A DNA stretch of 60,815 bases. Source: a virus. Positions 35,641 to 56,115 of this stretch are shown in pieces. Numbering within the stretch: the first letter of the stretch is position 1; the number at the start of each line of letters is the position of its first letter. Below the pieces are notes generated by a model, which was not told the DNA's origin, made no database searches, and saw nothing but the letters and a program-made list of their open reading frames with translations. The position numbers were made by a program, and so were the translations under genes. The stretch spans positions 1-60,815 of the IMG/VR virus record IMGVR_UViG_3300045579_000055, one strand, 5' to 3'.

Positions 35641-36096
35641 TTACCCCAAAACCTTTTGAACTTCTTCTGGTGTTGCTGGGCGGGCGTGTGAGCGAGTTAG
35701 CCATTTATCTGCTTGTTCTTTTGTTACAATGTTGACGCCTCTATAAATAGCCCCTCCTGCTTCTTCCCAACGAACATTTTTTGTTGAGTAGATAGCAACC
35801 TTGTCTCCAAGGTCTTTTGCTGACTTAACATTCTTTTTTGGACCATCTGCTGCCATAGATCCTATAGCGCCACCACTAAGAAATCCTAGTGCCTGAACAG
35901 GCTCTGCTGCAGGTTCTGCAACTGGCTCTGCTACAGGTTCTGCTACAGGTTCTGCTACAGGTTCTGCTACAGGTTCTGCTACAGGTTCTGCAACTGGCTC
36001 TGGCGCTTCAGCAACTACTTCTGCTGGTGCTTGGTTTATTGCTGAATCTTCTACATAGTCATGTATTGATCGCATTTCGTTGTCATTATTTTCCAT
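35641..36096 (-). CDS. Capsid-associated protein with (EPVA)n linker (151 aa)
   Basis: Short N-terminal acidic segment, then a tandem EPVA linker (residues about 32-66), and a C-terminal compact domain (KVAIYSTKNVRWEEAGGAIY...NIVTKEQADKWLT). The C-terminal domain resembles modules I have seen in actinophage head proteins next to the capsid gene. A strong AAGGAGG site and its own promoter suggest high expression. It could be a head decoration protein or head fibre on a flexible stalk. Confidence 0.65.
   Translation of the reverse strand: MENNDNEMRSIHDYVEDSAINQAPAEVVAEAPEPVAEPVAEPVAEPVAEPVAEPVAEPVAEPAAEPVQALGFLSGGAIGSMAADGPKKNVKSAKDLGDKVAIYSTKNVRWEEAGGAIYRGVNIVTKEQADKWLTRSHARPATPEEVQKVLG
35899..36002. 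repeat. 12-bp tandem repeat coding for EPVA
   Basis: About nine units encode Glu-Pro-Val/Ala-Ala. The central five units are identical at the DNA level (GGTTCTGCTACA on the plus strand), with diverged units (GGCTCTGC...) at both ends. Copy number is likely to vary between relatives. Confidence 0.85.
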
Positions 36097-43700: not shown

Positions 43701-44444
43701 AATGGGGATTCCTAAATTTTTTGCTTTAAGCATGTTGTCAGAAACTAAGTAATATGCGTCAAGTTCTTGTAGTCCGTAGCATTTGGCAACAACTGCTTTT
43801 TGAGGAGCAAGAGATATTTCTGATGGAAGGTTTATTGGAGTAACCCCAAGAGAGGTGGAGGAAAACTCTTCTGACCATTGTCCGAATGTTATTCCATTTA
43901 CTAAAAATGCGTCTTCTGTTTCTGATCCTCCGATAAAGTTAATTTTAAATACTAGTTGTATTTTTGAATCATCTGGAGGGGTATCAAATGTTTCTGATAT
44001 AAATATCCAGTTGCTATTAATTACGGTATCATAGTTTTTTAAATGTCTAACAATTTGCCCACTGGTTGTATCTTCATATTGATACCCAATTTCAAAACCA
44101 GCAATATAAGAACTTTCAGAATAAAAATATCCACCGACAGAAAATGTTTTTAGATATGTGTTTAAGTCTTTTAAATCCATAATCTCATTGCTTATTGCAA
44201 TGATAGATGCTGACTCATTGTTGGTTGGGGTTGCTGTAATTTTGCCTACATAACTGTCGATAAATGGTTCGTCTGTTGAATTTACGTGATCTTCATATGT
44301 ACCGCCAGTAATCGTCCAATTAGAAAGATTTCTTTGCGCTTCTGAAATTAAAGAAATATAGTCTGCGCCGTCATCTAATGCCCATAAACCAGTAGGGTGC
44401 TCTGCGAACACTTTCTCTGCGTATAGGTTTGATGGAGTAGACAT
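40731..44444 (-). CDS. LamG/concanavalin-like virion protein (1,237 aa)
   Basis: Several repeats of a concanavalin A/LamG-like beta sandwich are visible: for example 'RPMLVHLRLGKDTASLVING' (about 330-350), 'DLRLYVGGKKDGTSTFTGKI' (about 635-655) and a third set with 'TGLVQDGIGFYWNGKIV'. Such domains bind carbohydrates or pack as beta stacks. The protein starts with YAEKVFAEHPTGLWALDDGA, a typical opening of LamG-containing phage fibre proteins ('Y...hP.gyW.LdE'). Position upstream of the portal gene is unusual for a fibre, but a head- or tail-attached adhesin is likely. It has a near-leaderless promoter. Confidence 0.7.
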   Translation of the reverse strand: MSTPSNLYAEKVFAEHPTGLWALDDGADYISLISEAQRNLSNWTITGGTYEDHVNSTDEPFIDSYVGKITATPTNNESASIIAISNEIMDLKDLNTYLKTFSVGGYFYSESSYIAGFEIGYQYEDTTSGQIVRHLKNYDTVINSNWIFISETFDTPPDDSKIQLVFKINFIGGSETEDAFLVNGITFGQWSEEFSSTSLGVTPINLPSEISLAPQKAVVAKCYGLQELDAYYLVSDNMLKAKNLGIPIVYGTSSLTSLYPNDTNPSLIVPGLGFLNESGKFKQYTLETWLRVNSYTNDIKRIIGPIASDDGIYVDGPSIGLKIGSDYKTYYVGEWTRPMLVHLRLGKDTASLVINGQEVISFSYDPVSLEFPEMLVNQKNQDWIGFYAHEDVFPIDIDCVAIYPYVVPTAVTKRKFVFGQGVEIPENINTSYSGTSVFIDYAFANYSANYQYPKIGSWKQAFNDNTLIQNKALSVSKNPLPQILLSSKTEDELFSDCNIAQSSDPTNFFSFRPNSSWNNVSGHILFENFDFLKGSTSAFYGCFRLPQSSPQTQTLFRIEKENSTSYFAIELNDNQISYSINSNGTLQTLYSPLVAEPGELVDAGLNIPAFVARFGDKASDFFGSLSDLRLYVGGKKDGTSTFTGKIYKVGFCTKYNFQKIRGLFNELGVPIWNEDLFAVYQNNQLINIDGGIDTTSMPPSGGTTGTVNGGISGGGVFIDEEDALIDHVASYTLAPNKVFNTYKLSVSANAYWEDQIPLTYFAESVIDKRGDQYFDLDFIQFNIDYPIPSKTIAIETDPVAWTYAELANQYGLPIQRTYESLDNYLFTGYNDYEDLKNKIAKDYRYDTDGAVVKSYVTFQYTELGANQTPFYFTKTERPSRNGILVPGPDWMTTKYEVVDNMIIYPPSGVDFNDLSIVTHIDIKVKDSDTNNVNIKKLSYASQALNESDASPIGTRFGTPIYPYTKTGIYYDFKKQNPFSIYSGSSSYLYLTKTSGVQVRGQYDPFVNRGLLIPVNTSRANDFKAIAMQMAVRFDGDYFPYAPTQIFEIESKTAYIKFYMVASDPSGRRAKIYAIDAKTGLVQDGIGFYWNGKIVKEPVLTLQEWGFLGINFADSLIFSSFEGAIRLTGPLLFNSISYYQSTNLQEVQNVSERPWFRVKVLSGSGLDWEFWNAPSFNWNKVLVLSETSYYGVNPSEVYKSYTGTNKIIVNDDMPITLKDYGYSLYTDVGWSKFVVDPV

Positions 44445-44453
44445 TATGAGTCT

Positions 44454-44462
44454 ATTTTACCA
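44454..44462 (-). promoter_or_regulatory. Extended -10-like promoter for LamG gene
   Basis: TGGTAAAAT on the minus strand, 9 nt before the ATG at 44444. No ribosome binding site fits in between, implying near-leaderless translation. Confidence 0.5.
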
Positions 44463-44469
44463 CAGAAGA

Positions 44470-46503
44470 CTATTTATTTATCTTAATTTCACAATAGTCG
44501 GTTGTGCAATAGGACTCTCCCTGAGCCTCTAAATTATCTATGCCGTCATAAATAGCACTAAAGTCAATATGTTTCAACTTGCCAACATACGACTCATATT
44601 GCTCTTCAGTAATCTGAGTATATGGCTGCTGTGGATAAACAGTATTTCCCATTGGTAGGAATGAGACTGCCTTTAATTGTCCCTCGTACATGTGAAGTGC
44701 TGGTACAACATGCTTTGACTCTGTTTCTTTGTCAAATGAAAGTGTTACAGAAACACCATTGTCAGACCAGTATTTTTGTGCAGTTGCAGCAAGAGCAATC
44801 TTTTCAAACAAAGTAACATCCTTTTCAGATCTTGGATGACCTGACTTAATTGGGAAGTATACAACTGATGTGTTTGCTGATACTACGTCGTCTTCAATTG
44901 TGTACCCCGCTGCTTTAAACAAGTGCATCATTGGGTCTGTGTTTCCAAATCGAACTGCACGAAGAAAGAAGTTTCCTCCAGGTCCCCAGTGAACTCCAGG
45001 AGTTGCACCAGAAAGAATTGAAACTGATCCTGATGGCTTAACTGTTGTTACACGAATTGATTCACGAACACAAAGCCATTCTGAATACTGGTGATCATAG
45101 TGACGAATCTTGTTATAGCCCTCGTCCATCCATTCACGAACAACTGGCAAACCCTTTTGGTCTGCAAATGATGCAATACCAGTAAGTGATGTACCAATAC
45201 GACGATTACGTTGCATGATACCGTTTGTTTGTGGCCAGTGTGTTGGAACAAGTGTTACAGTCTTTCCATAAAGGTATGCAAACTTCAGGGTACGCAGGAA
45301 GTCTTCCTTAGACTCATGACGATTTAAGTGCACTTCTACAAGCGTACATAATTCGTATGATTCCAATGGCTGCTCCGCACATGGGTTAAATCCCATCACA
45401 CGATAATCCTTACCATCTGGCGCATCCTTTAGTCTGCCATAATTACGAGCAACATCAAGCCAGATAAAACCTGGTTCTCCGTTTTCTGTAATTAAATCTA
45501 CATAGTCTTCATATTTTGTTCCTACCTCTGCTGAGATAGAGTTATTAGACATCCACGCCCATCCTGGATTTTCTGGATCAAAGGAGTTGCGTTCTGGAAA
45601 TGACTCAGAGTTCTTTAAATTCATAAACACGTCATCTCCAGCACTACCCAAAGCAAGGGTTGCTGAGCGTCTTACGTTACCTGATACCACGCAGGTACCG
45701 ATTAGATTTACAAGGTCTACGATAGCACGAGAGTCTAGTGTTTCTCCAGTCCTGGAGCCTATTACACGGTCTATTTGGTTGTGCAACCTGATAAGAGGTG
45801 CGGGACCAGATGCAACGCCTCCAAAGCCCTTTATGGGGGCTCCTAGGGGCCTAATTAGGTCATAGTTAAATTTCTGTATATTTTGATTAGGTCTGAGATA
45901 TGAGTTTATCAAAACTCTCACTGATTCTACCCAGCCTTCACGAGTGTCTGGAATTTCATAAATCTGTTCTGGCTCTGTGGGACTGTAAATTAAGAAGCCT
46001 TTATCCTGACCAACAGTATCAAACCCTACACCAATGCCAAGCATCAATGCATCCATAACCCAAGCGAACAGGGCCCCTGGATCATTCTTATCAAGGTCTT
46101 TTGTTGAAACCATTGCACAGTTTTGTAGTGCTGCTGAGTTTTTCTTCTCCATAGTCATAGGAGTTCCAAATGCCCACATACCACGACCTGGCGGTGTCCA
46201 CTTTAAGTTAAACATTCTATCAAATGCTTCTTGTGCTGATTTCTGTGCCTTGTAGTCATTCCATGGCAAACGGTTTTCTTTTGCATGGTTTTTTTGAACT
46301 GAATACATACCCTCGATTACACGACGACAAACTTCATGCCATCTTTCTTTAGTTCCATCTTCCTTCATACGAGAATATGTACGAATAAAGGTAATTTCTC
46401 CAAGTGAATTTTCTGCTGCATCTTTAAATCCAAATGGGCTTTCAGCACCTTTGTACTTTTCAATAAAGTCTTCTGGAAGTCTAAAACTAAAAAAATCTGA
46501 CAT
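44470..46503 (-). CDS. nrdJ-like: Adenosylcobalamin-dependent ribonucleotide reductase (class II, monomeric)
   Basis: Reduces ribonucleoside triphosphates to deoxy forms with coenzyme B12, supplying DNA precursors without oxygen dependence. The 677-aa protein matches the monomeric RTPR type in length. Active-site residues are present: C129 (LQNCAMVS), radical Cys C375 with E377 (FNPCAEQ), C386 (YELCTLVEV), and the C-terminal shuttle pair C666-x4-C671 (CTTDYC). The start is ATG at 46503 with AAAGGA upstream; the longer frame to 46560 runs through the promoter. B12 must come from the host. Confidence 0.93.
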   Translation of the reverse strand: MSDFFSFRLPEDFIEKYKGAESPFGFKDAAENSLGEITFIRTYSRMKEDGTKERWHEVCRRVIEGMYSVQKNHAKENRLPWNDYKAQKSAQEAFDRMFNLKWTPPGRGMWAFGTPMTMEKKNSAALQNCAMVSTKDLDKNDPGALFAWVMDALMLGIGVGFDTVGQDKGFLIYSPTEPEQIYEIPDTREGWVESVRVLINSYLRPNQNIQKFNYDLIRPLGAPIKGFGGVASGPAPLIRLHNQIDRVIGSRTGETLDSRAIVDLVNLIGTCVVSGNVRRSATLALGSAGDDVFMNLKNSESFPERNSFDPENPGWAWMSNNSISAEVGTKYEDYVDLITENGEPGFIWLDVARNYGRLKDAPDGKDYRVMGFNPCAEQPLESYELCTLVEVHLNRHESKEDFLRTLKFAYLYGKTVTLVPTHWPQTNGIMQRNRRIGTSLTGIASFADQKGLPVVREWMDEGYNKIRHYDHQYSEWLCVRESIRVTTVKPSGSVSILSGATPGVHWGPGGNFFLRAVRFGNTDPMMHLFKAAGYTIEDDVVSANTSVVYFPIKSGHPRSEKDVTLFEKIALAATAQKYWSDNGVSVTLSFDKETESKHVVPALHMYEGQLKAVSFLPMGNTVYPQQPYTQITEEQYESYVGKLKHIDFSAIYDGIDNLEAQGESYCTTDYCEIKINK

Positions 46504-46540
46504 AATGTATATCGTCCTTTCAAAAACGGAATAAGTGTTA

Positions 46541-46568
46541 ATTATAGCAGAGTTTTGCAAAAAGTAAA
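46541..46568 (-). promoter_or_regulatory. Promoter of ribonucleotide reductase gene
   Basis: TGCTATAAT extended -10 (46541-46549) with a possible -35 TTTACT (46563-46568), 16-nt spacing. Gives a leader of about 31 nt with the ribosome binding site. Confidence 0.65.
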
Positions 46569-46573
46569 ACTCT
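46549..46573. promoter_or_regulatory. Dyad overlapping the reductase promoter (operator candidate)
   Basis: AGAGTTTT and AAAACTCT form an 8-bp perfect inverted repeat around a 9-nt centre, covering the -35 region and touching the -10 element. It could bind a repressor, or form a weak terminator for the upstream oxygenase operon. It does not match the NrdR box as I know it. Confidence 0.45.
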
Positions 46574-46616
46574 ACCTAAAGTTGTTATTAAGGGTTAATA
46601 AACTATACTTTTAAAA

Positions 46617-47234
46617 TTAATGAATCCAGTGTTGCGGAACCATTATCTTTTCTCCACTTTTCACCAAGTGTGCGGTGTGGTGATATGGTGGAGATGGAGG
46701 AAATACAATAATACTTCCTGCTTTTGGCTTAATGGCAAAGGTATAATTTTTTTCTTTTTCTGCAATTGCAAAGTCTGGGTTTGGACTAGCATTTTTTAAA
46801 ACTCCTTCTGGTGATGAAATAGTAAATGATATCTCTCCGCCTTCATAGTTATCATTAAGGTACATCACAAAAGAAACCTTTAATCTTTCATCTCCTTCTT
46901 GCTGATCAAAATGTGCACCCATGAATGTTCCTGGCTGATACTTTTTGATTGGATACTGAGGAAACAATTTTGGCTCATCAGTAATACCCTGAGCCTTTGC
47001 ATAATCTCTTGCAACATCATCAAATGCTTTTTCTAAAGTTTTGTATATGTAGTCATTTCCTTCTGAAGGAGCAATTGTTTTGTCTGTTCCATAAACGTAT
47101 GCTTGACCACTGCAAGCCATCCACTCACCCCACGGGTCCTTGTTATCGTTCTCAATTGCATCGACAAGTTTTTTGGGGTCGTCAATTACATCTGTGTAAT
47201 AGTAAACCTTTTCTTCAAGTATTTCTTTATTCAT
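46617..47234 (-). CDS. Fe(II)/2-oxoglutarate oxygenase (prolyl-4-hydroxylase type), K-variant
   Basis: This 205-aa protein has the double-stranded beta-helix signature: iron ligands H108-x-D110 (GAHFDQQ), the strand 'FVMYLNDNYEGGEI', and a distal His among H185/H186/H189 (PPYHHTAHLVKSGEK). The usual Arg that binds 2-oxoglutarate is replaced by K196. The family hydroxylates Pro or other side chains using O2 and 2-oxoglutarate. AGGAG precedes the ATG. It is the last of six such genes; the substrate is unknown. Confidence 0.85.
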   Translation of the reverse strand: MNKEILEEKVYYYTDVIDDPKKLVDAIENDNKDPWGEWMACSGQAYVYGTDKTIAPSEGNDYIYKTLEKAFDDVARDYAKAQGITDEPKLFPQYPIKKYQPGTFMGAHFDQQEGDERLKVSFVMYLNDNYEGGEISFTISSPEGVLKNASPNPDFAIAEKEKNYTFAIKPKAGSIIVFPPSPPYHHTAHLVKSGEKIMVPQHWIH

Positions 47235-47243
47235 TGTTTGCTC

Positions 47244-47906
47244 CTAGTATTTATTATTTTCATAAAAGCCTTTGACTTTTATAAATCCTACAGTAACATA
47301 TCTAATTGGACCTTCGCCAACATGCCTTACCCCGTGCTCAAACTCTTCGTTGCCTGGAAAAACAAGCAATGTCCCTGGCTTTGGTCTCATATCTGAGTTT
47401 TCTTTGTTATAAAAAAATAAAGTTCCATCTTTATAATCATCATTAATATACAGAATAGCAGCATATCGTATTGATGGATCTGTGTGTTGATCTGTGTGAG
47501 ATTTTAGTTGAACTCCAGCCTGCATTCTTTGCATTGTCCCAAATCCTGCCAATTCTAAAGTGCTGTCTGCTAAAGCAATTAGATCAGAAACTCTCTTGTG
47601 TGAATTTTTGCTAACTAACTCATTTTGAATATTTAAATTCTTGTCATCCCATCCAAGTGTGATCTCATACTTTCCTTCTGCAACCAAATTTTCAACATCA
47701 TCTCTTCCAAATTTTTCCATGCAAAATCTAGAAAGACTTTCTCGGTATGCTTTAGACCATTCCTCTTCTGGTGTTCTATTTATAATATCCCACACAGAGT
47801 CTAGTTCTTCTTGTGATAAAAAATTTTCTATAGAAAGAACTTGATCATGAAAAACTTCTGTTTTAAAACCAGCCTCTTCAAACTGTTTTTGTAAAAATAC
47901 TTCCAT
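47244..47906 (-). CDS. Fe(II)/2-oxoglutarate oxygenase, R-variant
   Basis: A 220-aa protein with H137-x-D139 (LKSHTDQHTD), AAILYINDDYKDGTLFF, distal H191 (FEHGVRHV) and R202 (GPIRYVTVGF), the complete catalytic set. The N-terminal 100 residues are a helical lid-like region with acidic surface, different from the neighbouring enzymes. GGAGG precedes the ATG. It is separated by only a few bases from the genes on both sides, so it is part of one operon. Confidence 0.88.
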   Translation of the reverse strand: MEVFLQKQFEEAGFKTEVFHDQVLSIENFLSQEELDSVWDIINRTPEEEWSKAYRESLSRFCMEKFGRDDVENLVAEGKYEITLGWDDKNLNIQNELVSKNSHKRVSDLIALADSTLELAGFGTMQRMQAGVQLKSHTDQHTDPSIRYAAILYINDDYKDGTLFFYNKENSDMRPKPGTLLVFPGNEEFEHGVRHVGEGPIRYVTVGFIKVKGFYENNKY

Positions 47907-47907
47907 G

Positions 47908-48654
47908 CTATTTTTCCTCCACTTTGTATTTATTATTATGCATATCTATTTTATACCCTTCTTTTAATAACTTTTGCCATTCGGCTCTTTCAAGTTCTTG
48001 CTTTGCCCTGGTCTCTTTCATTTCTGCTGCCCAGGCATCCCTGAGTTCTTGTGGGTATGCGTCTTCTTCACGATCATCCCAGAAAGATCCAATAGTATAT
48101 CTTACGCCACTTTCTATTAATGTTACTTCGTGCATGTTGTTGAATCCCCCGTCAAAAGCAGCAAGCATACCAACTTTAGGCTGTATGCTTATGTCTTGAT
48201 CTGGAAACTGCAGCATACCTCCCTCAAAATTATCATTTAGGTATAGAAATGCTGCATATCTGCTTCTTGTAAAAGCGCCAGAGTGTCCATGCTCGTCTGT
48301 ATTATCTGAATGCTTTCTAGCATATGCGCCTGGCTCCCACTTTTGAGTATGGTATCCAATTTGAGAAATTATCTTTGGATCTAAATCATGAACACTAGCG
48401 ACAGCGTCTATAATACCCTTTTTAATTTGTGTAAAAATATCAGAAGGTAAACCTTCGGAAATTACATGTTCGTCGTTATCTTGTGGCAAAACAGAAGAAT
48501 AAGATTCATAAAAAGATATAGGCATCCAACTAATGCTTCCTAGTTCTGCATGCTTGTCTAAAACCTTTACAAGTTTAGCAGCAGTTTCAGAATCGATAAA
48601 GTTTTCATATACCATTATATCTTTTGTTAGTCTATTTTTATTGTTTAAATTCAT
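47908..48654 (-). CDS. Fe(II)/2-oxoglutarate oxygenase, R-variant with C-terminal helix
   Basis: A 248-aa enzyme with H115-x-D117 (ARKHSDNTDEHG), AAFLYLNDNFEGGML, distal H175 (NNMHEVTLIESGVRY) and R185. A charged helical tail of about 45 residues follows (AEMKETRAKQELERAEWQKL), absent from its neighbours and possibly for oligomerisation. The start is set at 48654: AGGAG lies 10 nt upstream and the ATG overlaps the upstream stop (ATGA); the longer frame from 48702 overlaps the neighbour for 52 bp. Confidence 0.88.
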   Translation of the reverse strand: MNLNNKNRLTKDIMVYENFIDSETAAKLVKVLDKHAELGSISWMPISFYESYSSVLPQDNDEHVISEGLPSDIFTQIKKGIIDAVASVHDLDPKIISQIGYHTQKWEPGAYARKHSDNTDEHGHSGAFTRSRYAAFLYLNDNFEGGMLQFPDQDISIQPKVGMLAAFDGGFNNMHEVTLIESGVRYTIGSFWDDREEDAYPQELRDAWAAEMKETRAKQELERAEWQKLLKEGYKIDMHNNKYKVEEK

Positions 48655-49325
48655 GGTTGCCTGTCTCCTGTATGTTTTGTAATTTCCCAAAAAAATGGGC
48701 AAGTAAATCTTAGTCCACTTTTAATTTCAGTAACACCATGAATGTAGTTTTTATCTCCTGGAAAAAAATATGCTGCACCTTTTTTAGGCTTAAACTGAAC
48801 ACCCTGCAATGGGAAATACAATTCTCCGCCTTCATAGTCGTCATTTAGATAGAACAAACTTGAAAGGTCGTAGTTTGGAAAATCATTTGGAAGTCCAGCA
48901 TCTGGGCCTTCGTGCAGTTCTTTGTCTGCATGAGGGTGTTGAAATTGACCTGGTAGCCATTTAACAATTGTTGCGTTGGTTGGAATAACTTCTACTTTGT
49001 AAAACTCTTCAACAATAGGCTTTAGCCTTTCAAATAGTCCTGCTATAACTGGTGCTATTGCTGGATCATTTTTGTCTAATGTGGGCCTAGTTGCAACCCT
49101 ATCTTTCCAGTATTCTGAGTCATATACTATTGTTCCATTTTCATTTACATGACTTTCTGTAACATCCCAAATTGTTAAAGACTTGGCTGCTTTTTCTAAA
49201 AATACTATTTCTTCTTCTGTCATAAAGTTTTCTAACTCTACGATCATGTCTTTGCTACTACCAAACCAGCCAGATGGAGTCATTGATGGCTTTCTTTTTA
49301 CAATAGATGCGTTTTTTATGTCCAT
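48651..49325 (-). CDS. Fe(II)/2-oxoglutarate oxygenase, R-variant
   Basis: A 224-aa enzyme with H132-x-D134 (HPHADKE), SLFYLNDDYEGGELYFP, distal H196 (YIHGVTEIKSG) and R206 (LRFTCPFFW). All catalytic residues are present. The ATG at 49325 has TGATATAAT 6 nt upstream and no ribosome binding site, so this gene starts leaderlessly and begins a second transcription unit within the oxygenase island. Confidence 0.9.
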   Translation of the reverse strand: MDIKNASIVKRKPSMTPSGWFGSSKDMIVELENFMTEEEIVFLEKAAKSLTIWDVTESHVNENGTIVYDSEYWKDRVATRPTLDKNDPAIAPVIAGLFERLKPIVEEFYKVEVIPTNATIVKWLPGQFQHPHADKELHEGPDAGLPNDFPNYDLSSLFYLNDDYEGGELYFPLQGVQFKPKKGAAYFFPGDKNYIHGVTEIKSGLRFTCPFFWEITKHTGDRQP

Positions 49326-49331
49326 AACTTG

Positions 49332-49340
49332 ATTATATCA
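49332..49340 (-). promoter_or_regulatory. Extended -10 promoter inside oxygenase island
   Basis: TGATATAAT on the minus strand followed by 6 nt and the ATG at 49325. It splits the island into an upstream and a downstream unit. Confidence 0.65.
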
Positions 49341-49353
49341 TAGGCTTTAAATC

Positions 49354-49809
49354 CTACAAATTTCTCTCAATCTCTAATTGTTTTAAAAACCTATCTGCAT
49401 TAAACCTCCAGTTATCCTTTGCAAATGATGTTACAATCTTAATGCAGACATTCTCATAGTCTTCTTTGCTCAACTTATTCTTTAGATCATGAAGTGCTTC
49501 AACCGTGTCAATGTAGTTCTGTCTAACAAATGATGGATCTCCTGCATGATTTCTTTTTAAAACCTTTGTTGTGACTATTCCTGATGGCTGGTACAGAGAA
49601 ACTGTTAAATAATCTTTAGCAAAGCCAGCGTCTTGATACATTTCGTAGCCTTCAATAGCCTGCTCTGCATTATCAAAAGATATAATAGACCTAACTGGAG
49701 ACTCTCCATCTCTTGATACTGTTATCATATAGTGAGCAACTTTTCCATCTTTTGCATTTTTAATATAGTCATTTACCATGTCGTCATGGTTTGGTTTTTG
49801 GTTAATCAT
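49354..49809 (-). CDS. Hypothetical 151-aa protein in oxygenase island
   Basis: I do not recognise a family. The protein is alpha/beta: 'KVAHYMITVSRDGESPVRS' strands, 'FDNAEQAIEGYEMYQDAGF' helix (reminiscent of a phage-wide small domain), and a C-terminal helical half (NKLSKEDYENVCIKIVTSFA). It overlaps the upstream DUF6065-like gene as ATGA and is the last gene of the first oxygenase unit. No metal ligands are obvious. Confidence 0.6.
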   Translation of the reverse strand: MINQKPNHDDMVNDYIKNAKDGKVAHYMITVSRDGESPVRSIISFDNAEQAIEGYEMYQDAGFAKDYLTVSLYQPSGIVTTKVLKRNHAGDPSFVRQNYIDTVEALHDLKNKLSKEDYENVCIKIVTSFAKDNWRFNADRFLKQLEIERNL

Positions 49810-50519
49810 TGTGCACCAGTGTTATCATTTACATAAAGTTTTAATGTTTTTGTTTCATGCTCTCCTCGAACATTACCATTCTCATCAACGGCATCTCTGT
49901 ACCAGTCGGTCCAGTTACCAGACTGATTAACCACCTGGGCTGCTTGACCATAAGAAATATTTGCCTCAGTTCTTGATCTATCTGGATCTTGATAGTCAAA
50001 CATTTCTATTGTGCTGTTATTTAGGTTAGTTAAAGATATCGGAATTATGGTTGCTAATGGTGTGCCAGCCTTTATTACAACTTCTTCGTTTGCTGTTTTT
50101 GCTTTAATGGCTAGTGGAAGAGGGTTGTCAAAAAACGATGTACTAATTAAGTTAGACATTGTTTCAAAATCTTTGTTAAAATAGTTTACTGGGTTTATTG
50201 TAAGAATACTTACATCTTTTTCAGTTTTAAAAATTAATCCAGTATTAAGACTAAGAGAAGATTGACCTCTACCAGTATAAGATCCTTCTGGCGCTTTAAT
50301 GATTTCAACATGGTCTTGAGTTTGATCATTTATTCCGTCCCAAATAAAGGAAATGTCTTCTGAGCAAGAAAGACTCCAGCCAACAACGTTTGCTTGTGTT
50401 ACTGGGAAACATCTATACGCATGCTTTTCTGATGTTGCATCCATCCAATCTCTTTTAATAGACATAGGCGAAATAACAAAAGGATTTCCTTTCATTTTTT
50501 CAACCGAAATATTAATCAT
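49806..50519 (-). CDS. DUF6065-like protein, copy B (237 aa)
   Basis: The central pattern 'YRCFPVTQANVVGWSLSC' followed by 'DISFIWDG', later 'NPLPLAIKAKTANEEVVIKAGTPLATIIP' (shown in parts), is what I remember from DUF6065 proteins; the match is from memory and needs a search. It is coupled to an upstream oxygenase as TAATG. A distant relative (51212-51979) has the same position after another oxygenase. The role is unknown; it could form a partner or substrate-binding subunit. Confidence 0.55.
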   Translation of the reverse strand: MINISVEKMKGNPFVISPMSIKRDWMDATSEKHAYRCFPVTQANVVGWSLSCSEDISFIWDGINDQTQDHVEIIKAPEGSYTGRGQSSLSLNTGLIFKTEKDVSILTINPVNYFNKDFETMSNLISTSFFDNPLPLAIKAKTANEEVVIKAGTPLATIIPISLTNLNNSTIEMFDYQDPDRSRTEANISYGQAAQVVNQSGNWTDWYRDAVDENGNVRGEHETKTLKLYVNDNTGAQ

Positions 50520-51202
50520 TACTCGTTATCCCATTTTGAATCATACATGTCTGGCGTATGATATTTTTTGCTGTAATCCAACATGGTCACAATTGAATAT
50601 TTTGTTCCAGAATGAACTGGCATTGCTTGGTGAGGATACATGAAGTTGGATGGGAAGATATAAAGATCTCCAGCCTCTGGCTTTATGTTTAAATCTTGTA
50701 ATCTAAAGTATAGTTCTCCACCTTCATAGTCATCATTAACGTAAGCAACCAAAGACACAGTACAATTATATGAATAGCCATGGTCGTGATGTTCTTTAAA
50801 GTGCTGACCTGGTCCATACTTAATAAAATTAAATGCTTCCCAATACTTTAATGGCATAATATTATAGTCTCTTCTATAGTCTTCTACCGCTGCTGCTTGA
50901 GCATCATAAATGTCTTGCCATAGGCTTTGAAGTTTAATAGAATCTTCGCTTTTGTCCAATTCAATATCAGTTTTTTTAAATTTAAAATCTACACAATCTC
51001 TATACTCTGGCATAAGTTGTTGATATCCAACATATGCTGGCATCCAATGATATCTTTTACCTTCTGTTGATAATTGTCCATATCCAGCAACAGAGCCCAA
51101 AGTATTTTCAAGTCTATTAATTACGTCAAACTCTTTTTTAATAACTCCTCTATAACAAGTTATTCCATTCCCAAGACTTTCTTTTTCTGTCCATGTTTGC
51201 AT
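50519..51202 (-). CDS. Fe(II)/2-oxoglutarate oxygenase, K-variant, copy B
   Basis: A 227-aa enzyme with H138-x-D140 (FKEHHDHGYSYN), VAYVNDDYEGGELYF, distal H191 (MYPHQAMPVHSG) and K201 in place of the usual Arg. It is clearly paralogous to the 235-aa enzyme two genes upstream: both share 'EAFNF.KY', 'YNCTVS' and 'FPSN/CPSN'. AGGAG lies before the ATG at 51202. It precedes and is coupled to the DUF6065-like copy B. Confidence 0.88.
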   Translation of the reverse strand: MQTWTEKESLGNGITCYRGVIKKEFDVINRLENTLGSVAGYGQLSTEGKRYHWMPAYVGYQQLMPEYRDCVDFKFKKTDIELDKSEDSIKLQSLWQDIYDAQAAAVEDYRRDYNIMPLKYWEAFNFIKYGPGQHFKEHHDHGYSYNCTVSLVAYVNDDYEGGELYFRLQDLNIKPEAGDLYIFPSNFMYPHQAMPVHSGTKYSIVTMLDYSKKYHTPDMYDSKWDNE

Positions 51203-51211
51203 ATATATCTC

Positions 51212-51979
51212 CTATTTATATTCTCTGCGTGACCAAACTTTTTTAATATAAACTCCTCCGTCAGGCTGACGATAAAATTTTGCATTATCTACCATTTTAC
51301 CATATATGGATGATTGATCCAAAGTTTCTATACTATGCTCCCAGTTTTCTCTTTTAAAAGGAAGAACTTGAAGATATGGTGTACCTGCTGGGATTATTCC
51401 TTCCCATCCCTCGGCAATAAAAAAGGGAAAACTACCAAGAAGATGAACTTTGTCTGAGTCAACAATGCCAGTAGTATTTAAAAATGGGAGATCAAACCTA
51501 TTCATTGGTGTCATAAAAAGTGCACTATAACCTTCTGGTAACTCTAGTCCCCATGGAGAACTCCATGCAAAATGATGCTGATAATATCCTTTAGGATGCT
51601 CAAATTGTGGCATTGGCGGTCTTTGAGTACAGAAGTCCTTATACTTGGGATCATTAATAGTTACATTTATAATGCCCTGAGAATTTTTAGAAAATACTAA
51701 ATCACAAGGAGTTTTAAAAAGATATCCAGTTGCAAATGCGTCCATAATTGCTGGGCAGGCTTTCCATGTTGGTATCTTTCCATAATCATCTGCTGTACCT
51801 TCTTTTGGAAATGGACAAACCTCTTTTGTAGCCTTGTAGTATTCTCCATTTGGCATTTTTGCAAACCTGTCTGCATCTTTATACCAATCTGGTATTTCTT
51901 TTTGTGTAGGAACAGGAACAGAAATATCTTCTTTATTTATCCAAGGCCTAAACGATGTAAATTTTGCAATTAGAGACAC
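51212..51979 (-). CDS. DUF6065-like protein, copy A (255 aa)
   Basis: The start is GTG at 51979, overlapping the oxygenase stop as TAGTG. The sequence has 'TWKACPAIMDAFATGYLFKTPCDLVF', quoted here in part as KACPAIMDAFATGYLF, and 'GIIPAGTPYLQVLPFKRENW', a layout like copy B but diverged. It contains six cysteines and many aromatics. Possible partner of the preceding oxygenase. No catalytic motif is identified; the family link is tentative. Confidence 0.55.
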   Translation of the reverse strand: MSLIAKFTSFRPWINKEDISVPVPTQKEIPDWYKDADRFAKMPNGEYYKATKEVCPFPKEGTADDYGKIPTWKACPAIMDAFATGYLFKTPCDLVFSKNSQGIINVTINDPKYKDFCTQRPPMPQFEHPKGYYQHHFAWSSPWGLELPEGYSALFMTPMNRFDLPFLNTTGIVDSDKVHLLGSFPFFIAEGWEGIIPAGTPYLQVLPFKRENWEHSIETLDQSSIYGKMVDNAKFYRQPDGGVYIKKVWSRREYK

Positions 51980-52686
51980 TACTTGTGTCCTAGTTCATTA
52001 ATGTCTGTCATTACGACAACACAATACTTTGTTCCTTCTTTCATTGGCAAAGATGCATGTTCATAAATATAGTTGGATGGACAAAGAATAATATCTCCTA
52101 TTTTTGGAGTGTGAGTGTAGTTGTCCATTCTTGGAAACTTAATCTCTCCACCATTGTAGTCTTCATTTATATAGATAACGGCAGATACTGTACAGTTATA
52201 CATTGGACCATGATCAGCATGAATATTGAAGTGTGTGCCCTCGCCTTCATATTTTACAAAGTTAAATGCCTCATAGTATATTACATTAATTCCCCAATAC
52301 CTTGCATAATCGTCAACACAGAACTTTAACTTTTGATAAATTTCTTCATGTAAGTCTAAAAGTTCAGCATTATGTTCATCTCTTGGGCCCAGGTTTTCTT
52401 GTTTAAATCTAAAATCTACAGCATCTCTAGCCTTTTTAATTGGAACATCAGAGTTGGTTACTTTTGCTTCTGACCATTTGTACTTTCCATTACCGCCTAA
52501 ATTTGACTCAAGAATTTTAATATATCTTTCAGAGTCTTCCTTTGAAAATACATTTCTATAAAGGTTTATTCCAAGTGCTGGATTTTCAACTACAATATTA
52601 TTTCCTATAATTTTTGAAGGATATCTGTTTGTTGCTGTTTCTGATCTATCTTTAGTAAACCAAACATTGTCATTTTCATCATACAT
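51979..52686 (-). CDS. Fe(II)/2-oxoglutarate oxygenase, K-variant, copy A
   Basis: A 235-aa enzyme with H156-x-D158 (FNIHADHGPMYN), SAVIYINEDYNGGEIKFP, distal H210 (YEHASLPMKEGTKY) and K220 instead of Arg. It is the first gene of the oxygenase island and paralogous to the 227-aa enzyme downstream. A weak AAAGG lies 11 nt before the ATG, and TGTTAAAAT about 30 nt upstream may be the promoter. Substrate unknown; the nearest upstream genes are fibre genes. Confidence 0.88.
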   Translation of the reverse strand: MYDENDNVWFTKDRSETATNRYPSKIIGNNIVVENPALGINLYRNVFSKEDSERYIKILESNLGGNGKYKWSEAKVTNSDVPIKKARDAVDFRFKQENLGPRDEHNAELLDLHEEIYQKLKFCVDDYARYWGINVIYYEAFNFVKYEGEGTHFNIHADHGPMYNCTVSAVIYINEDYNGGEIKFPRMDNYTHTPKIGDIILCPSNYIYEHASLPMKEGTKYCVVVMTDINELGHK

Positions 52687-52715
52687 ATTTTGCTTAGCCT
52701 TTCGCTATTGTTAAT

Positions 52716-52724
52716 ATTTTAACA
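52716..52724 (-). promoter_or_regulatory. Candidate extended -10 promoter of the oxygenase island
   Basis: TGTTAAAAT on the minus strand, 29 nt before the ATG at 52686. It lies just upstream of, and partly before, the stop of the preceding gene. Confidence 0.4.
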
Positions 52725-52731
52725 TTTAATC

Positions 52732-53169
52732 TTAAATAAATCTTGAGCCATCCCAGCCGTGTGTTTCGCCAATGGCGACATACTGATCGTCTGGAACTTT
52801 GACTAATTTAACTTCACTGGCAAATGCTGCTTCAAATGCTTCTAGTCTAGGGGAATCAGTTCGTACAGCATTTCTAGCAATTACGACATTGTTGTGTAAA
52901 AATACATAAAGTTTAAAAGAATCCAATTCTTCTGCTGTAGCATCTGCTGCTTTGCTTACAATTCCTCCAGAAAAAGAATTTCCGTCCCAGGTTGAGCCAC
53001 GAGTTGCTGTTGTTTTATGATTGGATGCATCCATTGCAATTATAGGATTTGACAAATCTGAAAGCGCAGAGTCAATAAGGTTTGCTGTTGTAGAGTCATC
53101 ATAATAGTTAATAAAATTTAAAATATCATAAGACTCATCATTGTTTTTAACTAGTACTGCATATTTCAT
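52732..53169 (-). CDS. Hypothetical 145-aa protein after fibre gene
   Basis: The protein starts with MKYAVLVKNNDESYDILNF, has an alpha/beta middle with GSTWDGNSF, and ends in VAIGETHGWDGSRFI. The two WDG-type motifs are reminiscent of small proteins that assist or cap tail fibres, but I cannot assign it. It has its own promoter (TGATATAAT) and AAAGGAG, and lies between the Phe-Pro repeat protein and the oxygenases. It could be a fibre assembly factor. Confidence 0.55.
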   Translation of the reverse strand: MKYAVLVKNNDESYDILNFINYYDDSTTANLIDSALSDLSNPIIAMDASNHKTTATRGSTWDGNSFSGGIVSKAADATAEELDSFKLYVFLHNNVVIARNAVRTDSPRLEAFEAAFASEVKLVKVPDDQYVAIGETHGWDGSRFI

Positions 53170-53192
53170 TTTTATCTCCTTTAATTGTTTTA

Positions 53193-53201
53193 ATTATATC
53201 A
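53193..53201 (-). promoter_or_regulatory. Extended -10 promoter for 53169 gene
   Basis: TGATATAAT on the minus strand, 23 nt before the ATG, following a strong hairpin. Leader carries AAAGGAG. Confidence 0.65.
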
Positions 53202-53213
53202 TATCTTTGGTAT

Positions 53214-53241
53214 GTGGGTGTGAACTTTTATTCACACCCAC
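53214..53241 (-). terminator. Perfect 11-bp hairpin after Phe-Pro repeat gene
   Basis: GTGGGTGTGAA pairs with TTCACACCCAC around a 6-nt loop, 5 bp past the stop at 53247. No U run follows, so it is a hairpin-only terminator or mRNA 3' end structure. Confidence 0.65.
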
Positions 53242-53246
53242 TAACC

Positions 53247-54209
53247 TTAGCAACAACAGTTTCCGCAAGGGCAGCGCCAACAGTAGTTAGCGGTGCATTG
53301 ACATCCTCCACTTGGTGGTGGTGACACTGGTGCTGGTGTAAACGATGGGAAGAACGGTGGGAAGAATGGGAAGAATGGGAAGTAAGGGAAGAACGGTGGG
53401 AAGAATGGGAAGAATGGGAAGTAAGGGAAGAACGGTGGGAAGAATGGGAAGAATGGGAAGAATGGGAAGAACGGTGGGAAGAATGGGAAGAACGGGAAGA
53501 ATGGGAAGAACGGTGGGAAGAATGGGAAGAATGGGAAGTAAGGGAAGAATGGTGGGAAGAATGGGAAGAATGGGAAGAATGGGAAGTAAGGGAAAAACGG
53601 CGGGAAGAATGGAGGAGTAGTAACGCTGTTAGATGAAGGAGACACTCCAGAATCACCATTAGCATTAGTTGCTTTTACTGTGTATGTCTGTGCAGTATTT
53701 GCTTCTTGTGCTACAGATACAGATGTTGAGGCTGTAGTTCCAGACTTTCCATCAGAGGAATACCAAGTATAACCAGTAATTGCTTTTCCACCAGTTGCGG
53801 GGGCAGACCAAGAAACTGTATCATTTTGTGATCCAGTAGTTGTAGATGCCGTTGGAGCACCTGGTGTTGCTGGAACAGTTGTAACTGTAATAGCATTAGA
53901 TGCAGAAGAAGATGCTGATGTTCCAGAAGAGTTAGTTGCAGTAACAGTAAATGTTGGTGTTGAACCAGTTGAAAGACCACCTACAACAATTGGAGAAGAT
54001 GATCCACTTTGTGACTGTCCAGTGCTTGCAGTAACCGTATAAGAGGTTGCTGGAGGAGAACCTGCTGGTAATTCAAAAGTAACAGATCCTGCACCATTAT
54101 TAAATGCTCTGCCTGTTCCTACGTCTGTAGCAACAACATTGATTGGGGGTTTTGGCTCTAAGAAGTCATTTGCTGCTTGAGACCTTTTACCTACTTTTTT
54201 ATTTGCCAT
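53247..54209 (-). CDS. Fn3-domain fibre protein with Phe-Pro repeat and Cys-rich tip (320 aa)
   Basis: Residues about 18-112 and 113-195 read as two fibronectin type III domains (PPINVVATDVGTGRAF..., VPATPGAPTASTTTGSQNDT). Then follow about 90 residues made almost only of Phe, Pro and Tyr, in six units of type P-FFP-(Y/F)FP-FFP-FFP. The last 20 residues contain eight cysteines (CQCTANYCWRCPCGNCCC). No signal peptide. The layout suggests a virion spike: Fn3 base, extended aromatic-proline rod, cross-linked or metal-bound tip. GGGGAG precedes the ATG. I know no family with this repeat. Proline hydroxylation by the adjacent oxygenases is a hypothesis. Confidence 0.75.
   Translation of the reverse strand: MANKKVGKRSQAANDFLEPKPPINVVATDVGTGRAFNNGAGSVTFELPAGSPPATSYTVTASTGQSQSGSSSPIVVGGLSTGSTPTFTVTATNSSGTSASSSASNAITVTTVPATPGAPTASTTTGSQNDTVSWSAPATGGKAITGYTWYSSDGKSGTTASTSVSVAQEANTAQTYTVKATNANGDSGVSPSSNSVTTPPFFPPFFPYFPFFPFFPFFPPFFPYFPFFPFFPPFFPFFPFFPFFPPFFPFFPFFPFFPPFFPYFPFFPFFPPFFPYFPFFPFFPPFFPSFTPAPVSPPPSGGCQCTANYCWRCPCGNCCC
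53345..53620. repeat. 39-nt minisatellite coding for the Phe-Pro rod
   Basis: Six tandem units of 39 nt (one with an extra 9 nt), near identical in DNA, on the plus strand built from AATGGGAAG, AACGGTGGGAAG and TAAGGGAAG blocks. All units keep the reading frame of the minus-strand protein. The copy number probably varies among strains. Confidence 0.9.
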
Positions 54210-54237
54210 TACTTTACTCCCCTTTTCTTAGTGCTAA

Positions 54238-56115
54238 TTATTTGAGATCTCCGAACACAACCCAGGTATTTGCTGCTCTCTTCATGAGAGTTGCAGATGA
54301 CCATCGTGTACGTAGTGTTAATCCTGGAGTAGCATTTGCTGTTACTCCCGCTCCTGCTGCGATTGCAACTGAGCCAGTGTCTGTCTGAAGAACATCAATA
54401 GTTGTTCCAATTGGGAAGTTCAATGTTGAATCTGCAGGAATTGTTACATTTACTGCCGAAGCACCAGTATGAGAAACTTCAATCAAGGAATCTCTTTCTG
54501 ACAGTGCTGAAAGGGTATATGCTGCTGTCTTTTGAATAATTGGAGTTCTTGAAGGAACGCCTTCCTTTGTCTGTGTACCGTCTGAGAATGCTACACCAGA
54601 TGATACTGTTACAGTTGTTGCTTCAAGTCCTGCTACTGCAAGGGTATCAAGAGAGCCTTCTCCGAATGCCACGGTTGTTGATGGCTCTGTTGAAACATCC
54701 TTGAACAACTTCCACTTAGCATCAGATACGTCTCTTACGATACCTGCATGCTTTGCTGCCCCATCGTTGTATGCTACAACAAGACCAAGGTCAACAGTGT
54801 TTGCTGCATTTTGGTGAGCAAGTTGAACCATGTTATCTTCAATTGTAATAGATGTTGCGCTTGCATTAAATGTTGTACCATTTACAGTCAAGTTTCCATC
54901 AACTGTAAGATCCTGGTCAATCTCTACTGAACCAGTGAATATTGCGCCAGACAATGAAGCCTTTGCGTCAAGTGCTGTTTGTGTAGCAGTTGAAACTGGC
55001 TTATCTGCATCTGATGTATTATCAACATTGCCAAGTCCTACTGAAGACTTAGTAAGTGCTGCTACTGCAGTTGAAATCTTTGTGTCTGCTTCTGTTCCTG
55101 CTGAAGCAACTGCTGCATTTGCTTTATTTGTTGCGTCTTGTGCTGCTGTTGCAATTGCATCTGCTTCTGCTTGATCAGCATATGCTGTAGTTGCAATTGT
55201 TGAATCAATATCAAATCTTCCGTCTACTGCATTCCACTCAATACCAGTTCCAGCAAGTGCTGACTGATCTACTTCTGCTCCGTCGATAGCATCTTCAAGA
55301 TCTGCCTGAGTTACAAGAAGAGATGTGTCTGCAATTCCATGTACGCTTAGTGTTAAGTTTGCGTGTGTTCCAAGATCTCCAGAAACTACAGAGACTGCGC
55401 CTGCAAGATCTGAGTCAGTAACTAGTACTGATGTATCTGGAATCCCGTGTACATCTGTTGTTAGGCTATTGTGAGTAGTAATTGCGTTTGTTATTGCTGT
55501 TGACATTCCTGTGCTGTTAACAAGATCTGTCATATCTGAAATTCCATGAACATTCTCTGTTGTAGATGCGTGATCAGTAAGTTGTGAGATATTTGCTTTT
55601 TGACCGAGATTATTTGTAATAGTTGTAGCATAATCAGCATCGTTTGCAAGTGCTGCTGCTAACTCTTGTAGTGTATCTAGTGCACCAGGTGCGCCATTAA
55701 CAAGGTTATTAATCTTTGTCTGAACAAATTCTGTTGTTGCAATTTGAGTTGTGTTTGTTGCTGCAGATGCAGTTGGTGCCAATGGTACTCCAGTAAACTC
55801 TGGAGATGCTATTGTTGCCTTAAGATTTAGTGTGTCTTGTATATCTGAAAAATAATCTGGATTATCTCCTAGTGCTGCTGCTAGTTCATTAAGAGTATCT
55901 AGTGCGCCAGGTGCGCCATCTACAAGATTATTGATTGCGGTTTGCAGTTCTGCTGCATTGGCAAAATACTGCAATGCTGACCAGGCTGAGGAGCCATTAC
56001 CCATCTTAAATTTATTTGTGTCGGTTTCAAAACCGATTTCACCTGCTGCTAATATTGGATTGGCAGCCGTCCATTGGGCTGCAGTACCTCTGCGCTGTTG
56101 CATTCTTGTTGCCAT
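54238..56115 (-). CDS. Tail fibre with Mtd-N-type attachment domain (625 aa)
   Basis: The first 50 residues (MQQRRGTAAQWTAANPILAA, then GEIGFETDTNKFKMGNGSSAW) match the N-terminal attachment domain of major tropism determinant/hyaluronidase-type fibres. Two copies of the widespread 'LVDGAPGALDTLNELAAALG' fibre repeat follow, then a long beta-helical or coiled middle with repeated 'HGI.DTS.LVT', and a C-terminal 'TLNFPIGTTIDVLQTDTGSV' domain common in fibre tips. It probably contacts the host receptor. Promoter TGTTATAAT and AAGGAGAT precede the ATG. Confidence 0.88.
   Translation of the reverse strand: MATRMQQRRGTAAQWTAANPILAAGEIGFETDTNKFKMGNGSSAWSALQYFANAAELQTAINNLVDGAPGALDTLNELAAALGDNPDYFSDIQDTLNLKATIASPEFTGVPLAPTASAATNTTQIATTEFVQTKINNLVNGAPGALDTLQELAAALANDADYATTITNNLGQKANISQLTDHASTTENVHGISDMTDLVNSTGMSTAITNAITTHNSLTTDVHGIPDTSVLVTDSDLAGAVSVVSGDLGTHANLTLSVHGIADTSLLVTQADLEDAIDGAEVDQSALAGTGIEWNAVDGRFDIDSTIATTAYADQAEADAIATAAQDATNKANAAVASAGTEADTKISTAVAALTKSSVGLGNVDNTSDADKPVSTATQTALDAKASLSGAIFTGSVEIDQDLTVDGNLTVNGTTFNASATSITIEDNMVQLAHQNAANTVDLGLVVAYNDGAAKHAGIVRDVSDAKWKLFKDVSTEPSTTVAFGEGSLDTLAVAGLEATTVTVSSGVAFSDGTQTKEGVPSRTPIIQKTAAYTLSALSERDSLIEVSHTGASAVNVTIPADSTLNFPIGTTIDVLQTDTGSVAIAAGAGVTANATPGLTLRTRWSSATLMKRAANTWVVFGDLK

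Follow-up and report, generated by a model that had tools for sequence, protein, structure and literature searches.

The stretch of DNA analysed here, referred to as the window, comprises positions 1 to 60,815 of IMG/VR virus record IMGVR_UViG_3300045579_000055 (60,815 nucleotides). On its minus strand, at 46617–52686, the open reading frame (ORF) listing and Pfam place a run of six genes encoding 2-oxoglutarate (2OG)- and Fe(II)-dependent oxygenases of family PF13640 (oxA to oxF; E 1e-15 to 1e-8), all of which pass the gathering cut-off of that family (36–59 bits versus 27). Two DUF6065-type proteins lie within the run, each paired with an oxygenase (dufF with oxF and dufE with oxE), and upstream of it is a gene for a protein with Fn3-like domains and a phenylalanine- and proline-rich repeat, from here on called the FFP protein. 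From upstream to downstream, the gene order is FFP, a 145-residue protein, oxF, dufF, oxE, dufE, a 151-residue protein, oxD, oxC, oxB, oxA and ribonucleotide reductase (RNR; Table 1). The true start of oxC is probably the ATG at 48654; the listed TTG at 48702 appears too early because relatives begin at MNLxNK.

Table 1. Genes of the oxygenase cassette and its surroundings in the window
Feature	Position	Strand	Match or remark
oxA, 2OG-Fe(II) oxygenase, Lys anchor	46617..47234	-	PF13640 5.6e-12
oxB, 2OG-Fe(II) oxygenase, Arg anchor	47244..47906	-	PF13640 1.8e-11
oxC, 2OG-Fe(II) oxygenase, Arg anchor	47908..48654	-	PF13640 2.4e-9
oxD, 2OG-Fe(II) oxygenase, Arg anchor	48651..49325	-	PF13640 1.3e-8
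151-residue protein	49354..49809	-	No Pfam or PHROG match; patchy, in some relatives
dufE, DUF6065 protein after oxE	49806..50519	-	PF19541 2.3e-26
oxE, 2OG-Fe(II) oxygenase, Lys anchor	50519..51202	-	PF13640 1.3e-15
dufF, phrog_7084/DUF6065-like, after oxF	51212..51979	-	phrog_7084 1e-35
oxF, 2OG-Fe(II) oxygenase, Lys anchor; array gene closest to FFP gene	51979..52686	-	PF13640 2.8e-9
Fn3-FFP protein, proposed substrate	53247..54209	-	Upstream of oxF
Tail-fibre-like protein, Mtd_N domain, upstream of FFP gene	54238..56115	-	PF18454 2.7e-14; several tail-fibre PHROGs
Ribonucleotide reductase (RNR), downstream of array	44470..46506	-	phrog_367 1.9e-141

The active sites of the six oxygenases are intact. 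The catalytic residues are H108/D110/H186/K196 in oxA, H137/D139/H191/R202 in oxB, H131/D133/H191/R201 in oxC, H132/D134/H196/R206 in oxD and H156/D158/H210/K220 (oxF numbering) in both oxE and oxF, and all are invariant in alignments of 8–22 diverse relatives per oxygenase family. An earlier reading of this DNA from its letters alone, the original prediction, had described an H-x-D motif, a distal His and a basic 2OG anchor in each of the six genes, three anchors being Arg and three Lys. This was borne out, with Arg in oxB, oxC and oxD and Lys in oxA, oxE and oxF, as was its statement that the enzymes are diverged, the other five being 18–29% identical to oxA and oxE and oxF standing closer to each other (~44%).

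A pooled profile of the six oxygenases, when compared with the PDB, matched best the prolyl 4-hydroxylase (P4H) of B. anthracis (2.4e-11), followed by prolyl 3-hydroxylase 1 (P3H1), PKHD and EGLN1. Among the separate profiles, the top PDB match was a P4H for oxE/oxF (1.3e-6) and P3H1 for oxC (7.7e-8), P3H1 was also the top oxygenase for oxD (1.1e-5), and oxB gave weak matches to P3H1 (1.5e-3) and to a Naegleria TET-like enzyme (0.02). Two designed proteins that outscored P3H1 for the oxD profile aligned over a stretch of only 39 residues and were judged to be an artefact. The structure of oxF, the only oxygenase modelled, was predicted with a pLDDT of 88.5 and a pTM of 0.86. It fits solved 2OG oxygenases with the double-stranded beta-helix fold (Foldseek, E 1e-9), the fold that had been expected, and essentially every one of its 50 top-ranked PDB structures is a prolyl hydroxylase or a near relative (PKHD, PolD); they include PHD2 with HIF peptides (1e-9), an algal P4H with (Ser-Pro)5, the PBCV-1 prolyl hydroxylase and bacterial P4Hs. 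Judged from profiles and the model, the closest solved relatives of the array enzymes are prolyl hydroxylases, with weaker similarity for oxD and oxB and none for oxA. This supports a character of the array enzymes like that of the collagen-modifying prolyl hydroxylases, proline specificity being established by neither fold nor profile.

The FFP protein consists of two Fn3-like domains followed by a (FFP/FFPP)n repeat and a Cys-rich tail, and is the most proline-rich protein of the window. Its FFP region of 89 residues contains 50 Phe, 35 Pro and 4 Tyr and is encoded by a tandem repeat with a 39-bp period; it lacks Lys and Arg and hence trypsin cleavage sites. The Phe and Pro codons of this repeat differ at the third base (CCA/CCG/CCT; TTC/TTT), for which reason the reading frame looks to be under selection. 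The fn3 match of the window protein is slightly below the cut-off (23.4 bits versus 25), whereas the copy at locus L139 lies above it (L numbers denote retrieved loci and contigs). A 14-residue FFP motif was found in at least 120 viral stretches and in none of 257 Gb of GTDB cellular genomes. FFP segments were also detected within larger proteins of 959–1561 residues (L147, L189), that of L189 having fn3 matches; the contig of L189 (114,443 bp) is a large relative with 13 PF13640 matches, and its FFP segments lie inside a fibre-like protein of 1561 residues. It should also be noted that four FFP proteins (L139:7846–9168, L132:2603–3910, L249:4895–6274 and L171:2140–3861) end in a Hint/intein-like domain with a C-terminal HN, the Hint_2/Intein_splicing matches being weak and below cut-off. 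These ends suggest that the fibre protein may undergo self-processing in the four loci.

The array and the FFP gene are strongly linked. In loci retrieved by the sequence of oxE or dufF, and so picked without regard to FFP, the FFP gene was found on the upstream side of oxF in all 114 testable cases, that is, those with enough upstream sequence. Two scans with diverged oxF sequences (47% and 59% identical to that of the window) placed it within 4 kb upstream in 112 of 114 testable distinct loci, and in 57 of the 58 with oxF matches below 400 bits. Two loci were exceptions, one of which (L356) starts within the array and is probably a truncated locus. In the reverse direction, 79 FFP ORFs have at least 3 kb of downstream sequence, and in 71 of them an array oxygenase follows no farther than 3 kb away (median distance 515 bp). 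The placement after fibre genes, to which the original prediction had drawn attention, is kept across diverged phages. As the scans overlap in contigs and have common ancestry, these counts are not independent events.

A second, distinct oxygenase type (L171:3994–4572; PF13640, 51 bits) was found at 18 loci and, where upstream sequence exists, usually lies downstream of a proline-rich repeat protein. The upstream protein carries FFP plus PTPVA at L461–L464 and L466–L469, VTPA repeats and no FFP at L470, and PPFFPPSFVA repeats at L473, while at L472 APTPV repeats occur on a tail-fibre-like protein with smaller genes between; FFP is also present at L474 and L475, which are array loci. Therefore, the common factor is proline repeats and not the FFP motif itself, and the second type represents a partly independent case of the linkage. 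Within the window, a second proline-repeat protein, (EPVA)n, is encoded at 35641–36096 adjoining the major capsid gene and is possibly another candidate substrate.

A search of IMG/VR with oxE gave at least 598 confirmed relatives, and one with dufF gave 406 among the matches listed. The cassette occurs in hundreds of viral contigs with its gene order kept in close relatives, in which a seventh oxygenase between oxD and oxC is frequent. Among the diverged loci, oxE, dufE, dufF and oxF occur in rearranged order, and some loci (L160, L165, L172, L183) have extra oxygenases. The arrays of relatives number up to about nine oxygenases, and contigs of ~60–114 kb with the FFP repeat carry 6 to 13 PF13640 genes each. 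Against cultured phages, no match was obtained with megablast for positions 44000–56000, nor with tblastn for dufE or the Fn3 half of the FFP protein. We infer a freshwater (lake) origin for the phages with the cassette, and an actinobacterial host is suggested because the closest matches of TerL, capsid and RNR are mainly to actinophages.

Of the two DUF6065-type proteins, dufE clearly passes the cut-off of PF19541 (93 bits versus 26.6), while dufF itself matches no Pfam family and is related to dufE by profile–profile comparison. In the model of dufF (pLDDT 78), the 50 best Foldseek matches in the PDB all belong to the dUTPase/dCTP deaminase superfamily (E 5e-4 to 5e-3), with low TM-scores of 0.22–0.32 by query and up to 0.61 by target, and a dUTPase-like fold is tentatively predicted. 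The dufF sequence gave no dUTPase match in Pfam or PDB scans, and hhalign against four dUTPases was weak (P 0.003, probability about 10%). Residues D93, D174, D176 and Q204 are kept in at least 95% of 134 distinct dufF sequences and were mapped onto dUTPase motifs by eye. The two proteins belong to or resemble a wider family (DUF6065, PF19541/phrog_7084) with halovirus and gammaproteobacterial homologues, from which they differ in that no 2OG oxygenase neighbour was recognised at those loci examined. Stand-alone chromosomal homologues of dufF, 52–53% identical, are present in four gammaproteobacterial metagenome-assembled genomes (L258–L261); neither an oxygenase of the array nor any gene of the array phages was recognised next to them. 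In haloviruses HF2 (L286) and HRTV-14 (L287), the dufF relatives sit between the RNR gene and tail/adhesin genes with no annotated oxygenase nearby. An attempt to infer the role of DUF6065 from its cellular neighbours failed, the cellular homologues standing alone among varied neighbours, and a literature search for DUF6065 found no paper.

It is proposed, with a probability of about 0.6, that the cassette acts on the phage itself, whose proline-rich fibre or stalk proteins would be hydroxylated at proline. The enzymes probably modify a surface protein of the phage because the array nearly always adjoins the FFP fibre-like gene. The six prolyl-hydroxylase-type enzymes (up to about nine in relatives) would use Fe(II), O2 and 2OG to hydroxylate prolines, the first target being the (FFP/FFPP)n segment of the protein encoded immediately upstream, and the DUF6065 proteins would serve as accessory partners. 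We infer that the array enzymes are active, that proline is the modified residue and that the FFP protein is both the substrate and on the virion. Hydroxylation may add polarity or stiffness to a repeat that is very hydrophobic, or may create a receptor-binding surface, and the Lys-anchored and Arg-anchored enzymes may reflect different proline positions or sequence contexts. More tentative, and on balance doubtful, is a fuller picture in which the virion bears an aromatic stalk rich in hydroxyproline, made by a dedicated assembly line of P4H-like and P3H-like enzymes with dUTPase-fold partners; such a stalk would be the phage equivalent of the hydroxyproline-rich glycoproteins of plants or of the adhesive proteins of mussels. 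The original prediction had a virion protein as its first choice of target, a choice that is supported; its account of fold, active sites and fibre placement stands, but it had overlooked the FFP protein as candidate substrate, the DUF6065 partners and the likeness to prolyl hydroxylases.

A number of points weigh against proline hydroxylation of the phage's own fibre. The oxA profile found no PDB relative at E<=0.1. The substrate does not follow from the fold, since TET enzymes also have a prolyl-hydroxylase-like fold and relatives of P4H act on free amino acids. The dUTPase-like fold predicted for the DUF6065 proteins has no explanation in the hydroxylation model. As to the linkage, it can stem from the common ancestry of one phage group; FFP is genuinely missing within the 11-kb fragment of L328, the other exception in the diverged-oxF scans, and the array-type oxygenases of L476 and L477 have no FFP or proline-rich neighbour in their fragments. 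Some of the array oxygenases may also have other targets.

The alternative that survives best, although improbable, is that the array modifies virion or host-surface proteins, the FFP prolines not being its chief target. The residues concerned could be lysine, asparagine or proline in other fibre or host envelope proteins. The array does adjoin several fibre genes, the divergence of the six enzymes suggests several targets, and oxE/oxF are weakly similar to lysyl hydroxylase LH3 (0.0013). However, the top matches by sequence and by fold are prolyl hydroxylases, and the protein adjoining the array is the most proline-rich one of the window.

Modification of nucleotides or DNA bases, in which base oxidation would fall to the oxygenases and handling of the nucleotide pool to the dUTPase-like DUF6065 proteins, is considered unlikely. 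The fold predicted for dufF fits this explanation, as do the proximity of the halovirus dufF relative to an RNR gene, the adjacency of RNR to the array in the window's group, the TET match of oxB and a match of oxD to PF12851 (TET/JBP), the only one to that family, which at 20.3 bits is below the cut-off of 34.9 reached by none of the enzymes. The P4H and P3H matches are nevertheless far stronger than those to TET, dufE does not keep the positions aligned to D174, D176 and Q204 of dufF, and no oxygenase adjoins the cellular DUF6065 genes in the loci examined. Both PF00145 (C5 DNA methylase) and PF00692 (dUTPase) are absent from ten related records, which are possibly fragments. With regard to RNR, this gene also precedes the portal gene in Streptomyces phage StarPlatinum (TerL 55% identical), whose annotation shows no array over the 49 kb examined; its adjacency is therefore probably inherited, RNR not being part of the cassette, and was ruled out as functional evidence for nucleotide chemistry. 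In the group typified by L201, RNR linkage was found in 0 of 2 testable loci. The DNA-base modification allowed for in the original prediction has little support, given the missing methylase and the weak TET similarity. Control of host metabolism, by lowering 2OG or acting on small molecules, has been proposed for cyanophage 2OG oxygenases (PMC3037559, PMC9602691) and is just as unlikely here; it accounts neither for the linkage to proline-repeat genes nor for so many diverged enzymes whose active sites are invariant.

Among known enzymes, C. reinhardtii P4H-1, solved with a (Ser-Pro)5 peptide, and B. anthracis P4H resemble oxF in fold and in the HxD...H/Lys site; they differ in being only ~16% identical and cellular rather than phage-borne. 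The P4H of chlorovirus PBCV-1 (PDB 5c5t), which ranks among the 20 best fold matches of oxF, is a virus-encoded enzyme with the P4H fold and reportedly acts on peptides from proline-rich proteins of the virus itself. Evidence that viral proteins contain hydroxyproline is attributed to Eriksson 1999 (as cited in PMC9301287). PBCV-1 is a precedent for a viral prolyl hydroxylase, although it is a eukaryotic algal virus, whereas the window belongs to a tailed phage with tandem diverged enzymes, DUF6065 partners and FFP repeats.

The statement of the original prediction that phages carry single oxygenases was wrong: T4-like cyanophages carry several 2OG-Fe(II) oxygenases, S-SCSM1 having 24 (PMC9602691, PMC3037559), and eight distinct ones are known from pelagiphages (PMC9599517). 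These belong to the same Pfam family, expanded within phage genomes as in the window, and their function is untested (PMC9602691, PMC3037559, PMC9599517). They differ in that the literature searched reports no link between them and FFP or DUF6065, and no cyanophage match of oxE among those listed exceeds 39% identity, which covers a part of the protein. No phage precedent emerged from literature searches on hydroxyproline in phages and on hydroxylation of phage virions, and the papers searched named no substrate for any phage 2OG oxygenase. The tandem cassette, the DUF6065 pairing and the proline-repeat linkage appear to be new, none of them being found in the literature searched. In aquatic phages, 2OG oxygenases form an unexplained gene family that has expanded strongly, and the FFP linkage now points to a specific protein as candidate substrate. 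If the proposal is true, peptidyl-proline hydroxylation would join the known virion modifications and phage surface chemistry would be tied to oxygen and iron supply. It should also be noted that freshwater actinophage DSL-LC01 (L481, record 101148–107690) has a tryptophan halogenase and a glycosyltransferase annotated beside collagen-like fibre genes, which possibly represent another fibre-modification cassette.

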